From assembly GCA_938082505.1 (NCBI GenBank), contig CALLLH010000018.1:1-64000 (forward strand): 64,000 bases of DNA. Reading direction: 5' to 3'. Source of the stretch: an uncultured Flavobacteriales bacterium (lineage in GTDB: Bacteria; Bacteroidota; Bacteroidia; Flavobacteriales_D; Sanyastnellaceae). The notes under the pieces were generated by a model, which was given only the letters and a program-made list of their open reading frames with translations, did no database searches and was not told the DNA's origin. Shown here one piece after another: positions 3,783 to 10,410 of the stretch (positions are counted from its first letter, which is position 1; every line of letters starts with the position of its first letter). A program made the translations under genes and the position numbers.

Positions 3783-5783
3783 CTAGCGGATGCCCTTGAC
3801 GATGTAGTCATAGATGGGGTCGTTGGCGTCGCGCGAGGGCGCTTCGAAGGCCCGCGGTCGATGGACAGGGGCCACCAGGAGTTCCCGTTCGATCATTTCC
3901 CGCAGCACCTCTTCCCATTCGAGTGAACATTTGCCCAACAGCAGAGGGGAAAGGTCTTCTCCGCGCCGCCACATCCGGAGGACCTTTCGGAATCCTTGGA
4001 GGTACAAGTGGTCCTTGGTGAAGCCGCCCCCCCGGTAAGCCCTTGCGCACAGGAAGAAGGCCTCATCGACATCCATGCCATGCTCGTCGACCAGCATGGA
4101 GAAAGTCTCGGGAAAGGAGGCGCCGCGTACCATCTGGTCACAGGCGAGCACGCGCAGTCCGAGTTCCCTGAGGCGCTTCAGCGAGATGGTCCCGCTCAGG
4201 TACTCACTGAGGACAGCCAGCCCTTCCTGGGTCATGGTGTTCACCGGGGTGCCGAAAGTGGGCAGCTTGAGTGGCTGCAGGGCTGCATTCTCTGTCGTGA
4301 CCATGTGGACGCCAATCTCATGGTGAACCAGCCGCCTCAGCGCCTTGGGGGAAAACCGGGCCCCCTTCTTGATCATCACCTTCCGCTGCTGGCCCAATAC
4401 CATGGCATCGGCGACCATACGCGTGGAGACGATGACCTTGGCGGTGAATCCATATTCGGTCAGGGCCTCCTCGAATTGCCGCCCGGCCTCGGCGGCGGAC
4501 AGGGTCGCCATGGGCTCCTGTTCCACAGGCGGCAATTGCAGGAGATAGAGTGCATTCCGAACGTCCTTTTCGGTAGGCGCCCCGAAGTAGCGCAGGCTTC
4601 CGTAGAGGAAACGTGCCGTACCGAGGTCGGAAAGCAGGTCGACCTTGTCGATGTACCCTGTGATGGCGGCTTCATAGAGTCCGCGGATGTCAGGGTCCGT
4701 CAACTTCTCTACTGGAACTCGGTGCAGTCTGCGCTTCATGCTCCGCGCGTCGAATCCGATGGGGCGGTACTTGAAGGCGGGGGATTTCTGGAAACGGGAG
4801 CTGAAAAAAGCCCGGCGCTCCGCAGCGAGGTTGATGGGGTTGATGTATTCGAGCAATTCGAATCCACGGACGCATTGGTGGATGGCCTCGTCGACCTTCT
4901 TCAGGTCGGGTTCGGCTCCTTTGGAAAGTATGCGGCTCTTTTTGCCATCTGGAATGGTGGTGAACCGCTCAGCAAAGGCGGAGGCATGTTGGCTCAATGC
5001 TTCCTTGAGCCCTCCTGCGATGCCTTCGATTACCGCGGGGAACAGGGTTCCATCCTGTTCATTGCAATAGACCTTGGCGACTTCGAGGGCCAGGTCCACC
5101 ACTGCCGGATGTTGTTGGGTAATCCATCGGCACTGGTAGCCGTGGCCCTTGAAAACATCATTGGAGGCCACAGTTGGTGGAACCCCGTCGGGCCAATCGA
5201 CCCGGCCAAGGGCATCGACCAGGCTGTGACAGACATTGCCGTAACGTTCCTCATCGATGAGGTCCCAGCCGAGATTGAAGGTGGGTACCGGACGTTCCCA
5301 GCGCAGCCGGTTGTAGCTGTGAAGGTCATAGACCACGGCGGACTCGAAGCGGACCACGAGCTGGCGCAGCAGGGCGTCCAGCACCTCGTAGTAGCGCGCG
5401 TGCTTTTCAAGGCTGAGCAGCCGGTTCGCTTTGGTCAAGGGTTTGCGCCACACCTTTTGGCCCCAGGCCACGTCATAGACCGCGTCGGCGGGCGGGCGGT
5501 TGAGGTCATATTCATACCGGCTGTCCAATCCGACCAGGGTGATGGGCATGGCCTCGATCATCTGGGCGGTGCAGGGGTCCTCCTCCTGCCAGCGCTCAAG
5601 CTCTGACAGGCGGCAATTCACCTGCAGTTCGGGACGCAGCCGATGGCCATCGTGGATGGCCGTGCCAACCAGGGGCTGCCATTCAGCGATGCGGATGAAG
5701 AAGCCGGCATCCGTGGCCTCGGCCTGGAAGGTCCTTCCAGCCTGGATCCGACGGACGATTTCAGACGTGGTGAGCTCCAGCAC
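3783..5783 (-). CDS. N-formylglutamate amidohydrolase-like/DUF1704 (QEGLA) zinc peptidase fusion
   Basis: This 666-residue protein has two parts. Residues 1-260 resemble N-formylglutamate amidohydrolase, with IHDGHRLRPE (43-52), DSRYEYDLNR (87-96) and DLHSYN (153-158). Residues 285-640 are DUF1704, the flavohemoglobin-expression-modulating QEGLA family. That part has a zincin HExxxH motif, HEIGVH at 488-493, then TMTQEGLA (516-523), whose Glu520 is a likely third zinc ligand, and RGGGFTKDHLYLQGF at 584-598. The eukaryotic relatives of DUF1704 are the MATCAP tubulin tyrosine carboxypeptidases. The start is GTG at 5783, ten bases after the stop of the ATP-grasp gene, so the two are probably co-transcribed. 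No signal peptide is seen, so it should be cytoplasmic. The substrate is unknown; carboxypeptidase or deformylating activity is inference. Confidence 0.85.
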   Translation of the reverse strand: MLELTTSEIVRRIQAGRTFQAEATDAGFFIRIAEWQPLVGTAIHDGHRLRPELQVNCRLSELERWQEEDPCTAQMIEAMPITLVGLDSRYEYDLNRPPADAVYDVAWGQKVWRKPLTKANRLLSLEKHARYYEVLDALLRQLVVRFESAVVYDLHSYNRLRWERPVPTFNLGWDLIDEERYGNVCHSLVDALGRVDWPDGVPPTVASNDVFKGHGYQCRWITQQHPAVVDLALEVAKVYCNEQDGTLFPAVIEGIAGGLKEALSQHASAFAERFTTIPDGKKSRILSKGAEPDLKKVDEAIHQCVRGFELLEYINPINLAAERRAFFSSRFQKSPAFKYRPIGFDARSMKRRLHRVPVEKLTDPDIRGLYEAAITGYIDKVDLLSDLGTARFLYGSLRYFGAPTEKDVRNALYLLQLPPVEQEPMATLSAAEAGRQFEEALTEYGFTAKVIVSTRMVADAMVLGQQRKVMIKKGARFSPKALRRLVHHEIGVHMVTTENAALQPLKLPTFGTPVNTMTQEGLAVLSEYLSGTISLKRLRELGLRVLACDQMVRGASFPETFSMLVDEHGMDVDEAFFLCARAYRGGGFTKDHLYLQGFRKVLRMWRRGEDLSPLLLGKCSLEWEEVLREMIERELLVAPVHRPRAFEAPSRDANDPIYDYIVKGIR

Positions 5784-5793
5784 GGATTCCTAT

Positions 5794-6822
5794 TCAGGCG
5801 TTCTCGACCGTGTTGCGGAATTCCAGGCGCCGCTGCGAGTCCATCTGGCGAAATGCGACCGTATCCTCGAGCCAATCGATGATGCGCTTCTGCAGCTTGA
5901 CCTTGTTCAGGCGGTTGATGTTGACGATGCCACCCGGTGAGAGGACATTGACCTCGATCAACTTGCCCCCGATGATGTCGAGGCCCACAAAGTAGAGGCC
6001 GTCGGCGACCAGCTTTGGTCCAATCATCTTGCACACCAAACGTTCCTCCCGGGTGAGTTTGTGCTTTTCCGCCCGCCCTCCGGCGTGGACATTGGATCGG
6101 GGGTCATTCGCACTGGGGACCCGCCGCATCGCACCGATGGGTTCTCCCTGCAGCATCATGACGCGCACGTCGCCCTTCTCGGCCCCTTCCACATAATCCT
6201 GAAGGATGACATAGTTCGATTCGCCGCGCCCATCGATGTAGAAATCGAGGAGCGAGTTGACATTCTGGTGGGCATCGGGTTCGATCACGATGACGCCGCT
6301 TCCTCCAAAGCCATTGAGCGGCTTCATGATCATCTTTTTGGCGGCACTGTCTTCGATGACCCTTTTGAGGTATTCCTTGTTCTTGGAGACGTAGGTCTTG
6401 GGAATGATCTGATTGGAAGGGTCGTGGAATGCCGCGGTGTACAGCTTGTTGTTGGCCTCACGGAGCCCTTGGACATCGTTGACCACAAACACGTGGTTCT
6501 TCACTGAATCCAGGAAATTCAGGACAAGGCCATCCAACGGGGGGTCCGAACGCATGAAGATGGCGTCAAATCCTGCCAGCGGAAGCATTTGCTCCTTGAA
6601 GGCGACCTGCTTGTACCAAATGTTGGGAGAGGGACTGACCCTTCCCCGTTTTTCAATCACCCGACAGAAAGACATGGTGACGGAATCCCGGATGGTGAGG
6701 TTCGCACCGGTCGTCAGGGCAACTTGGTGTTCCCGGCAGACGCATTCGTGGATCAGGCGAAGCGTGCTGTCGGATTCCGGCTGAACCCGTTCCCACGGGT
6801 ACATGATGAACAGGATGTTCAT
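5794..6822 (-). CDS. ATP-grasp ligase, glutathione synthetase (GshB)-like
   Basis: This 342-residue ATP-grasp protein is clearly related to bacterial glutathione synthetase. It starts MNILFIMYPWE, has FMRSDPPLD (substrate domain), MKPLNGFGGSGV (ATP-binding loop), a GDVRVMMLQGEPIG strand, the AGGRAEKH segment and FVGLDIIGG with a late IEVNVLSPGG metal-binding motif. The ATG at 6822 was chosen over an extension to 6897 because a perfect -7 box (TACTTTTG, minus strand 6853-6846) lies within that extension. No gamma-glutamylcysteine ligase gene is present, and the partner gene encodes a DUF1704 peptidase. True glutathione synthesis is therefore not established; ligation of an amino acid to a peptide or small molecule is equally possible. 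Confidence 0.87.
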   Translation of the reverse strand: MNILFIMYPWERVQPESDSTLRLIHECVCREHQVALTTGANLTIRDSVTMSFCRVIEKRGRVSPSPNIWYKQVAFKEQMLPLAGFDAIFMRSDPPLDGLVLNFLDSVKNHVFVVNDVQGLREANNKLYTAAFHDPSNQIIPKTYVSKNKEYLKRVIEDSAAKKMIMKPLNGFGGSGVIVIEPDAHQNVNSLLDFYIDGRGESNYVILQDYVEGAEKGDVRVMMLQGEPIGAMRRVPSANDPRSNVHAGGRAEKHKLTREERLVCKMIGPKLVADGLYFVGLDIIGGKLIEVNVLSPGGIVNINRLNKVKLQKRIIDWLEDTVAFRQMDSQRRLEFRNTVENA

Positions 6823-6853: not shown

Positions 6854-6924
6854 GCGCATACCAATATCCAAACCTTCACGTATCGAGGCAATTGCAAGAT
6901 TTCACGGAGGCTTAACTTTTGCCC

Positions 6925-9900
6925 ATGAACCAGCCTGTGTTCCGCGGTTTTGCCGCCCTGATCCTCTGTCTTTCATCGGTCTCTCTTCTTGCGACCGATA
7001 CCACGACCGTTCAGACGTTCACTTTCGAAGCCCAGAACAACCCCGCCACGGCCTACGACAGCCCGGGCCGCCGTTGGTTCGAATTCCCCTCCTCCGACAA
7101 TGGGGTCGAATACGGCAAGGTCATCATGGAATACACCCTCAAGTGTTTCGAGGACGGCACCGCGGGCAACCTCGGCTACCCCTGCGGCGAGTGGGACTAC
7201 CTGAGCTATACCTATCTCTTCGATCACACCGGCCTGCTCGACAGTGCCGCCCTCCAGCATCCCTATCAGCTCCTTGCGGACGCCCCCTTTGATACAGCGG
7301 ATGTCGTGCCCTACATCCCGAACATCCAGGACACCGTCTACCTCCCGGCGGCCCAATACATCGTCGACGCCGTGGTGGAGGAGTCCGTCCTGCAGCCGGG
7401 TTCCGTGGACTTTGCCACACCCCTGTTCGAACCGGTGGGGGCCAAGCGGGCCCAATATCTCTGGACGGCGGATGAGCTGGCGCCCCTCGGGGCAGGCAGC
7501 ATCGACCGCCTCTGGATTCCCATGATGGCCGGCGCGGCCGACGCGCGGCGCATGGACCTCAAATGGGGCCTGACCCAGGACACCGCGCTGACCGGTTTCC
7601 TGGACCTCTCGAATACGGCTTATCAGTACGGACTGTCGACGTGGCAGTTCGATGACAGCCTGTCCCTGCGTCTGTCTCCGCCCATTGCATGGGACGGCAC
7701 CAGCAACCTCGTGCTCGAATTCGCCCTCGAAGACGTGAACGTGGAGACCGACGGCATCAACGACGGGTGGGCGTTGGCCTCCAGCGCAGAAGGCAAGGGC
7801 TGGGTTTCCGGGGTGGCCGACGGCGAGGTGGTGTTCACCGCCCCGGACCGCATTGCCGTCGACACCGGCGACCTGCAGGGCCTGTCCCAGGAGATCACCG
7901 TTGAATGCTGGGTCTATGGCGACCCGGACAGCCAACCCCAGAACGGGACGCTGTTCGAGGGCATCAATGCGGCAGGCCAGCGGGTGGTCAACGTGCACCT
8001 GCCATGGAGCAACGGCCGCGTCTACTGGGACTGCGGCTGGGACGGCGGCTACGACCGCATTGACCAGCAGGCGCAGACCGAGGACTACGAGGGGCGTTGG
8101 AACCACTGGGCCTTCGTGAAGAACGCCACGACCGGAGTGATGGAGATGTACCTCAACGGGGAGCTCTTTCACAGCGGTACGAACAAGGACAACCCCATCG
8201 AGGACATCGTCAAGATGAACCTCGGGGCTTCAGGCAACGGCAGCTTGCGCTACAATGGGCGTGTGGACGACTTCCGCATCTGGTCCAAGGCACTGGACGG
8301 AGAGACCATCGCCTCCTGGATGAACAGGCAGCCTACCGCCTTCCATCCGGATTGGGATGATTTGCTGGTCGACTACCGCTTCGACGGTGCGAATGGCACC
8401 CAGGAGGTCAACCATCACCCCGGCGGCGCCCCGGGACTGCATCACGGCACCACCCTGAGGCGGACGACCCCGGCACGCGAGCAGGCCAAGGGGCTGGCAG
8501 ACGGATTGCGGCCTCTGCTCGGATTCGGGCGCGGTACCTATTTGGAACTCGTTGCGGACGGATCCATCCTCGATCTGCGTCCGGTGGCGCCGATGAGCCT
8601 ATCGACTTGGGAGGTCGAAGGGAATGGGGTCACCATGACGGACCTCACCTACCATTATGTGCCGGGGGAGACCTACGAACTGTTCATTTTCGGAGACACC
8701 ATCTTTCACCCAATCCCGGGTGAGGTGACGGAGATCATCAACGACACCCTGGACTATTTCGGGATGCCGTTCGAGGTCATCGATCGCTACGAATTGTACC
8801 GGTTCATCACACCCTACGGCATCGGACTCGACCTGGGAGAAGACGGTTGGACATGGAAGTATGATGTCACCGACTACATGCACCTGCTGCGCGACAGTGT
8901 GGAGCTGCAGGCGGGAAATTGGCAGGAGCTGCTCGACCTGAAATTCCATTTCATTGAAGGGGCCCCGGCGAGGAATGTCCTCGGGATGGAGGCTTTCTGG
9001 AAAGGCCAATACGGTCTTTCCACCTTTGACGCGAACGTCGTGGCTTACGAATACACCCCGGAGGCCGGCGAGGAAATGTGGCGGCTCAAGACCCGGGCTT
9101 CCGGCCATGGTTTCGGCAGCGGAAACAACTGCGCGGAATTCTGCTTCAATACGCACAAGGTCAAGGTCAATGGAGAAGAGCATTGGTCGTGGGAAATCAT
9201 GCAGGAATGTGCGGACAACCCCCTCTTCCCTCAGGGCGGAACGTGGATATACGACCGCGCCGGTTGGTGTCCGGGGGCTCCAACCGAGACCCGCGATATG
9301 GAATTGACACCCCTGTTGGATGGGGGAGCCTCCTTCACGGTGGACTACGACATCGATTACGATCCCGATGGCAACTACCGCTTCGAAGGGCAGATCGTCG
9401 CCTACGGCGCACCGAATCATGCGCTGGATGCCGAAATCGTGGAGGTCATCGCGCCCAATGGATCCAAACTCTCTTCCCGCACGAATCCCATTTGCGACAA
9501 GCCACAGGTGTTGCTGCGGAACAGCGGCAGCACCCCCTTGACCTCCTGCACCATCACGTTCGGATTGGCGGAAAACCTGCAGTCGTTCACCTGGACGGGA
9601 AACCTCGGGTTTCTCGAGCAGGAAGTGGTCGACCTGGTCGCATTGGACACCGAGCTCTGGGACGGGGACGAAGAAGAGGACCTGACTTTCATCGCCAAGG
9701 TTTCCGCACCGAATGGCGGAACCGATGAGGTGGACTGGAACGATGAAGTGAGGAGCACATTCCGTCGTCCGCCGACCTACACTTACCTCGAGGATCCGGG
9801 GGACGAGGATGACAACCGCCTCATCATTTTCGTGCGGACGAACTCGACGCCTTGGGAGAACAGCGCCAAGTTGACCCACCAGGACGGGACCGTATACCTG

Positions 9901-10410
9901 GACCGCACCTACCCGGAGGCCAATACCCAATACCGGGATACCGTCTATCTGAACCAGGGTTGCTACACGTTCGAGTTTCAAGATTTTGACGACGATGGGA
10001 TCAGCTTCTGGGCCAACAGCGATGGCAGTGGCTTCGTGCGGCTTCGGAAAGTGGGGGGCAACTGGATCACCTTCGAACCGGACTTCGGGAAGTCCATCAT
10101 CCACAATTTCCATTTCGAGACCAACCTGGTCAATGACATCGCAACCCCGGAGATGACGGAGGGTGTGGTGCGGGTTTTCCCCAATCCAGCATCCGGCAGC
10201 CTGCAGTTCGAAATGGAAGGGTGGCAGGGCAAGTACGACTGGCTCCTCGAGGATGCTGCTGGTCGATTGCTGCGTTCAGGCCAAGGAGTGGCGGTGGAAG
10301 GGAGCATCTTGCAGGGCAGGGTGCCGCTGGCGGGACTTCCTGCGGGCGTGCACATGTTCACCGTGATGCAGCCGGGCCAAGTGGTGCGAAAACGGGTGGT
10401 GGTATTCTGA
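6925..10410 (+). CDS. PNGase F-related secreted protein with LamG insert and T9SS sorting domain
   Basis: The 1161-residue product starts with a signal peptide (hydrophobic FAALILCLSSVSLLA). Elements of peptide-N-glycosidase F are split along it. CGEWD at 87-91 matches the segment holding the catalytic Asp60. ELYRFITPYG near 626 and a following KYDVTDYMHLL match the next part. NCAEFCFNTH with Glu738 matches the Glu206 segment, and DRAGWCPG lies near 777. The Glu118 position does not seem conserved. Between Asp91 and residue 626 sits a large insertion containing a LamG/concanavalin-like domain at about 312-467 (ends VDDFRIWSKAL). The C-terminus from VRVFPNPASG (about 1080) is a T9SS sorting domain. 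The ATG at 6925 lies three bases after a promoter-like AACTTTTGC. Whether it cleaves N-glycans is inference. Confidence 0.85.
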   Translation: MNQPVFRGFAALILCLSSVSLLATDTTTVQTFTFEAQNNPATAYDSPGRRWFEFPSSDNGVEYGKVIMEYTLKCFEDGTAGNLGYPCGEWDYLSYTYLFDHTGLLDSAALQHPYQLLADAPFDTADVVPYIPNIQDTVYLPAAQYIVDAVVEESVLQPGSVDFATPLFEPVGAKRAQYLWTADELAPLGAGSIDRLWIPMMAGAADARRMDLKWGLTQDTALTGFLDLSNTAYQYGLSTWQFDDSLSLRLSPPIAWDGTSNLVLEFALEDVNVETDGINDGWALASSAEGKGWVSGVADGEVVFTAPDRIAVDTGDLQGLSQEITVECWVYGDPDSQPQNGTLFEGINAAGQRVVNVHLPWSNGRVYWDCGWDGGYDRIDQQAQTEDYEGRWNHWAFVKNATTGVMEMYLNGELFHSGTNKDNPIEDIVKMNLGASGNGSLRYNGRVDDFRIWSKALDGETIASWMNRQPTAFHPDWDDLLVDYRFDGANGTQEVNHHPGGAPGLHHGTTLRRTTPAREQAKGLADGLRPLLGFGRGTYLELVADGSILDLRPVAPMSLSTWEVEGNGVTMTDLTYHYVPGETYELFIFGDTIFHPIPGEVTEIINDTLDYFGMPFEVIDRYELYRFITPYGIGLDLGEDGWTWKYDVTDYMHLLRDSVELQAGNWQELLDLKFHFIEGAPARNVLGMEAFWKGQYGLSTFDANVVAYEYTPEAGEEMWRLKTRASGHGFGSGNNCAEFCFNTHKVKVNGEEHWSWEIMQECADNPLFPQGGTWIYDRAGWCPGAPTETRDMELTPLLDGGASFTVDYDIDYDPDGNYRFEGQIVAYGAPNHALDAEIVEVIAPNGSKLSSRTNPICDKPQVLLRNSGSTPLTSCTITFGLAENLQSFTWTGNLGFLEQEVVDLVALDTELWDGDEEEDLTFIAKVSAPNGGTDEVDWNDEVRSTFRRPPTYTYLEDPGDEDDNRLIIFVRTNSTPWENSAKLTHQDGTVYLDRTYPEANTQYRDTVYLNQGCYTFEFQDFDDDGISFWANSDGSGFVRLRKVGGNWITFEPDFGKSIIHNFHFETNLVNDIATPEMTEGVVRVFPNPASGSLQFEMEGWQGKYDWLLEDAAGRLLRSGQGVAVEGSILQGRVPLAGLPAGVHMFTVMQPGQVVRKRVVVF

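Follow-up and report, generated by a model that had tools for sequence, protein, structure and literature searches.

The enzyme that adds the residue in the tubulin tyrosination cycle, TTL, is an ATP-grasp enzyme, and the enzyme after which the N-formylglutamate-amidohydrolase-like (FGase) domain is named releases glutamate. On the removing side, human and ciliate relatives of MATCAP strip Tyr, Ala and Glu off tubulin tails, as described in PMC10499314. Here we analyze a stretch of 64,000 nucleotides (the window) from an uncultured Flavobacteriales bacterium (GCA_938082505.1, contig CALLLH010000018.1, positions 1 to 64,000), in which a GshB-like ATP-grasp ligase gene (ATPG) precedes a gene for a fusion of an FGase domain to a MATCAP (DUF1704) domain. 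In our literature searches, which covered titles and abstract openings, none of the papers listed was about this trio; the likeliest place for one, Iyer et al. 2009, on ATP-grasp/peptidase gene neighbourhoods, was outside that coverage, and reportedly treats the linkage of peptide ligases to peptidases as a general theme.

The trio of ligase, FGase and MATCAP

Both genes lie on the minus strand. ATPG (5794..6822) encodes 342 amino acids from a conserved ATG, a longer frame of 367 amino acids from an upstream TTG also being listed among the open reading frames (ORFs). Ten bases (5784..5793) separate it from the fusion gene (3783..5783); they contain an AGGA, read by eye, that is likely the ribosome-binding site of this gene, which starts with GTG and encodes 666 residues with two metallo-hydrolase-like domains. 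The FGase domain (residues 37-235; 5079..5675) matches PF05013 (E 2e-16) and the MATCAP metallocarboxypeptidase-like domain (residues 325-651; 3831..4811) matches PF08014 (E 1e-92; 310.9 bits for a cut-off of 27). A fold search recovered the expected relationship for each domain, including FGase, whose profile had found no match among PDB sequences. Motif and alignment point to HEIGVH (residues 488-493; 4305..4322) as the predicted metal-binding and catalytic motif and to QEGLA (residues 519-523; 4215..4229) as holding a putative third ligand of the metal: all 112 aligned MATCAPs keep both His and the Glu of the first motif and the Q-E-G of the second. In the FGase domain the near-invariant residues are H44, E67-E68-D69 and D153-x-H155. 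Genome-wide, the only MATCAP match and the only FGase match both fall within the fusion protein, and the single GSH-S_ATP match is ATPG. The initial annotation had described exactly this arrangement, a GshB-like gene ten bases upstream of a 666-residue protein joining an FGase-like domain to DUF1704 with an intact HEIGVH and QEGLA site. Both frames, both domains and the site are confirmed, and the kinship of DUF1704 to MATCAP that it put forward is a true one by profile, motif and fold.

Conservation was assessed in a scan of named genomes on the 80 best of 544 confirmed MATCAP loci, a sample that leans to the type of the window. In 77 of these 80 loci the three components, whether fused or split, lie near one another on the same strand (i.e. 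76/79 plus L031, a copy of L012 that is omitted from the alignment, correlation and linkage counts). A six-frame search found the ATPG of L029, L032, L149 and L155 and the FGase of L148 and L167. Of the three misses, L049 has its MATCAP protein beginning at a contig edge, while L054 and L089 lack both ATPG and FGase. Because the latter two are nested inside the Flavobacteriaceae clade of the MATCAP tree (71 of the 112 sequences, with most Flavobacteriaceae thinned and the fusion of L055 left out), they have probably lost the two components together. The carriers are mostly Bacteroidota, and also include Bacillota (L050, L051), a Piscirickettsiaceae strain (L045) and Halobacteriovorax (L055).

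Two more even samples were examined. Among 295 genomes of the class of the window, MATCAP is found in 10, with ATPG alongside in 8; the exceptions are G088, where the two genes are at the ends of two contigs, and G215, which has a lone MATCAP. The second sample is the class of G295, which is Gammaproteobacteria since G295 holds the Piscirickettsiaceae locus: 38 of its 274 genomes have MATCAP. Twenty of these were fetched, one locus each, giving 11 FGase-linked forms and 9 lone forms (L145 being nearly the same as L045). ATPG accompanies 10/11 of the FGase-linked forms and 0/9 of the lone ones. Over 96 loci the distance correlation of the trio is 0.89, a value obtained with no control gene. No gene family other than these three recurs across the sampled phyla (90 loci, ORFs of at least 80 amino acids, sequence clusters). 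Pairing of DUF1704 with the ATP-grasp gene is thus conserved and not random (77/80), as the reading in the initial annotation required; what it saw as a pair, ligase plus fusion, is conserved, but the unit is a trio in which FGase is a component in its own right. A second layout exists, in which the MATCAP protein carries an FGase-like domain devoid of the invariant histidines.

The lone MATCAPs L021 and L156-L164 form a clade of proteins of 424-549 amino acids (one of 702), with no ATPG or FGase in their stretches. The name “flavohemoglobin expression-modulating” of TIGR02421, which reportedly stems from work on Pseudomonas, probably belongs to this clade.

Kinship of the ligase

ATPG matches PF02951 and PF02955 above cut-off (E 1e-55). 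Among solved structures E. coli GshB (1gsa, E 1e-39) comes closest, followed by RimK-type chains at E about 1e-12; the six PDB matches at E 0.001, by sequence search and with ATPG itself not folded, are solely GshB and RimK-type chains. By sequence, ATPG is thus a GshB relative. The initial annotation had likened the ligase to TTL. Since ATPG is nearest to GshB and then to RimK-type chains, this link reduces to a shared ATP-grasp superfamily and an analogy, which would not imply descent.

We then compared ATPG with four GshB-type references, namely E. coli GshB, the only proven one, and the proteins from the three genomes of the class that have a strong GSH-S match but no MATCAP (strong meaning at least 170 bits, the next score being 101, a limit set after seeing the scores and among the matches listed; ranks 13-15, in G152, G182 and G001, belong to another system). 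The ATP-grasp core (R116, K151, K192, Q233, D243, R245, R267, N269, D307, E315 and N317 in the 367-residue frame) is the same as in all four references. Disparities nevertheless appear elsewhere. The references read NVTSPT where ATPG reads NVxSPG: the Thr of the SPT motif (position 322), present in 4/4 references, is Gly in all 98 set-linked ATPG rows (97 loci). In addition, Glu and Phe of GshB are replaced by Asn150 and Tyr153 in most ATPGs. The Thr to Gly change may well carry functional weight. Of the NCBI equivalog models for glutathione synthase, ATPG passes NF003573 but stays below the cut-off of TIGR01380 (243.4 vs 299).

At L147 (1835-3980) two ATPG genes stand in tandem; the weaker-scoring copy may be the source of the single departures from the core residues in the type B column of the alignment.

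Candidate activities of the trio

The homologies, the intact hydrolase motifs, the conserved operon and a ligase signature unlike that of GshB are observed. On this basis we give roughly even odds to a dedicated module that makes and breaks one amide with one ligase and two carboxypeptidase-type hydrolases. ATPG would activate a carboxylate with ATP and couple an amino acid to it, having departed from the glutathione role. FGase and MATCAP, both with carboxypeptidase-like chemistry, would hydrolyse these bonds from the carboxyl side: the FGase fold would free an amino acid, which is glutamate for its namesakes, from the N-acyl group it is linked to, and MATCAP would free a C-terminal residue. 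Candidate substrates are the tail of a peptide or protein, or else a small, acidic metabolite of peptide-like nature. As to the residue handled, glutamate is a reasonable starting assumption, because MATCAP relatives remove Tyr, Ala or Glu and the FGase namesake releases Glu. The tight linkage and the distance correlation suggest one substrate, handled in a cycle or in successive steps, and the present data fit both; we infer that one product is common to the three enzymes and that the ligase works on it. The initial annotation had proposed an add/remove cycle: the chemistry does fit addition and removal of a carboxyl-terminal amino acid, and ligase and hydrolases may act on the same bond.

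Several points weigh against the make-and-break module. We know of no substrate, product or phenotype for any carrier of the trio. Membership of one operon is no proof of a shared substrate, and a synthetase beside hydrolases could represent successive steps. ATPG passes the “glutathione synthetase” subfamily model NF009110 (426 vs 408) and the NCBI equivalog model for glutathione synthase NF003573 (294.3 vs 272). L146 and L166 keep an FGase-MATCAP with no ATPG within the fetched stretch, and L018 and L020 have no separate FGase.

The best surviving alternative, which we consider possible although rather unlikely, is a pathway of successive steps and no cycle: the hydrolases would unmask a carboxylate or amine of a precursor, to which ATPG would couple an amino acid, yielding a modified peptide-like metabolite. 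Strict linkage is as compatible with a pathway as with a cycle, and in many Flavobacteriaceae a tandem-rhodanese sulfurtransferase gene lies between ATPG and FGase (family c2, 41/90 loci); the lack of any family beyond the trio that recurs across the phyla sampled speaks against it. Somewhat less probable, about one chance in a handful, is a bacterial analogue of the tubulin-tail code, in which the ligase would add, and the two carboxypeptidases remove, residues at the carboxyl end of a specific bacterial protein or peptide; such a system could also be the stock of the eukaryotic MATCAPs, and glutamate is a good guess for its residue.

The same sulfurtransferase hints at a system of thiol or persulfide chemistry that would serve bacillithiol or an analogue of glutathione, which we regard as doubtful. 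In both rhodaneses that were read (L016, L102) the CGSG/CGTG-type active site is intact, and 43/90 loci have a family, c4, whose one scanned member is a DCC1-like thiol-disulfide oxidoreductase, but both genes neighbour the trio mainly in Flavobacteriaceae. The trio is found alongside BshC, in a genome with gshA (G295), and in genomes that lack all three markers (G296, G297, G298); a thiol-specific role was rejected on this ground. At L016 (7770-8938) and L102 (5862-7016) the in-operon tandem rhodanese is accompanied by a small, weakly TerB-like part (below the Pfam cut-off), separate or fused.

Least probable is that ATPG is a plain glutathione synthetase accompanied by hydrolases that degrade glutathione, a reading for which E. 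coli GshB as nearest solved relative and the two glutathione models passed by ATPG can be invoked, and against which stand the Thr to Gly change and the following observations. The 2.45-Mb source genome (rated 94.8% complete) has no gshA-type PF04107 or PF04262 match, PF08886 and PF03074 not having been searched; the absence of gshA noted in the initial annotation thus extends genome-wide for these two families, leaving a plain glutathione role unsupported. Both are also absent from 17 of 22 other genomes with ATPG and MATCAP, PF04262 being present in one (G295) and PF04107 in four, where one match is a weak fragment. The bacillithiol-synthesis enzyme BshC is encoded in the source genome and in 22 of the 26 searched. 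In two of the three class genomes used as references (G095, G267), a GCS2 gene lies within about 2 kb of the strong GSH-S match, and these may be true gshAB genes. According to PMC7063052, a mutant of the chromosomal gshB (SMc00419) of Sinorhizobium meliloti 2011 is GSH-deficient and accumulates gamma-Glu-Cys, although pSymB of that strain carries FGase, MATCAP and a set-type ATPG, a copy that may be silent; the laboratory strain 1021 also has the trio on pSymB. A glutathione role of the trio is unlikely, and the evidence argues that “glutathione synthetase” is a wrong name for its ligase.

Three further ideas were tried and rejected. PADLOC returned no anti-phage defence family for four proteins at E 0.01. 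As to a phage-borne set, none of 67 pattern matches in viral contigs was confirmed as a relative. No substrate encoded in the operon was found, there being no likely small gene of at least 80 amino acids beside the pair in the window and no family common across phyla.

Neighbouring genes and comparison with known systems

In the window the pair is flanked by an aminotransferase gene that points towards it and by a large gene, encoding a laminin-G-like domain, that points away. The families of these flanks (c14 and c16) recur in 11/90 and 10/90 loci, mostly of close kin. The second gene (6919-10410), divergent, encodes 1163 residues with laminin-G-like and PNGase F C-terminal-like domains. On a plasmid of Vibrio sp. 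HDW18 (L166, 4666-7092) an FGase-MATCAP gene adjoins a DUF413 (maoP) gene, with no ATPG in the stretch.

A GSH-S/RimK-like ATP-grasp gene also recurs near a zinc deacylase gene at L171 (5283-7218), L172 (5453-7394) and L173 (2882-6340), the deacylase of L171, the sole one scanned, being AstE/AspA. These sets further hold a protein of 480-504 residues with no Pfam family above cut-off, and their stretches have no MATCAP. They represent a parallel pairing of ligase and hydrolase.

The trio is a widespread three-part enzyme set now filed under “glutathione synthetase” and “flavohemoglobin expression-modulating protein” models. It could account for some gshB genes without gshA; PMC6282198 states that gshA is also present in 79% of gshB genomes. 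It also places the bacterial kin of an enzyme that modifies tubulin in a testable context.

Each component has a described counterpart from which it departs. ATPG shares its domains with GshB (PF02951/PF02955; 1gsa), and unlike GshB it is tied to MATCAP, in a genome where no gshA was found. N-formylglutamate amidohydrolase (PF05013; 2q7s) is here instead fused or adjacent to MATCAP. Human MATCAP/TMCP (KIAA0895L; 7z5g, 7z6s) is about 23% identical to the bacterial form, which differs in being joined to FGase and ATPG. The fusion scores above the cut-off of the QEGLA family TIGR02421 (353.1 vs 338.65), whereas lone members of that family form a separate clade with neither ATPG nor FGase nearby. 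With the tubulin tyrosination cycle (TTL with VASH/MATCAP) the likeness is in logic alone, a peptidase removing what an ATP-grasp enzyme adds; here the ligase is kin to GshB, and a protein substrate is not indicated.
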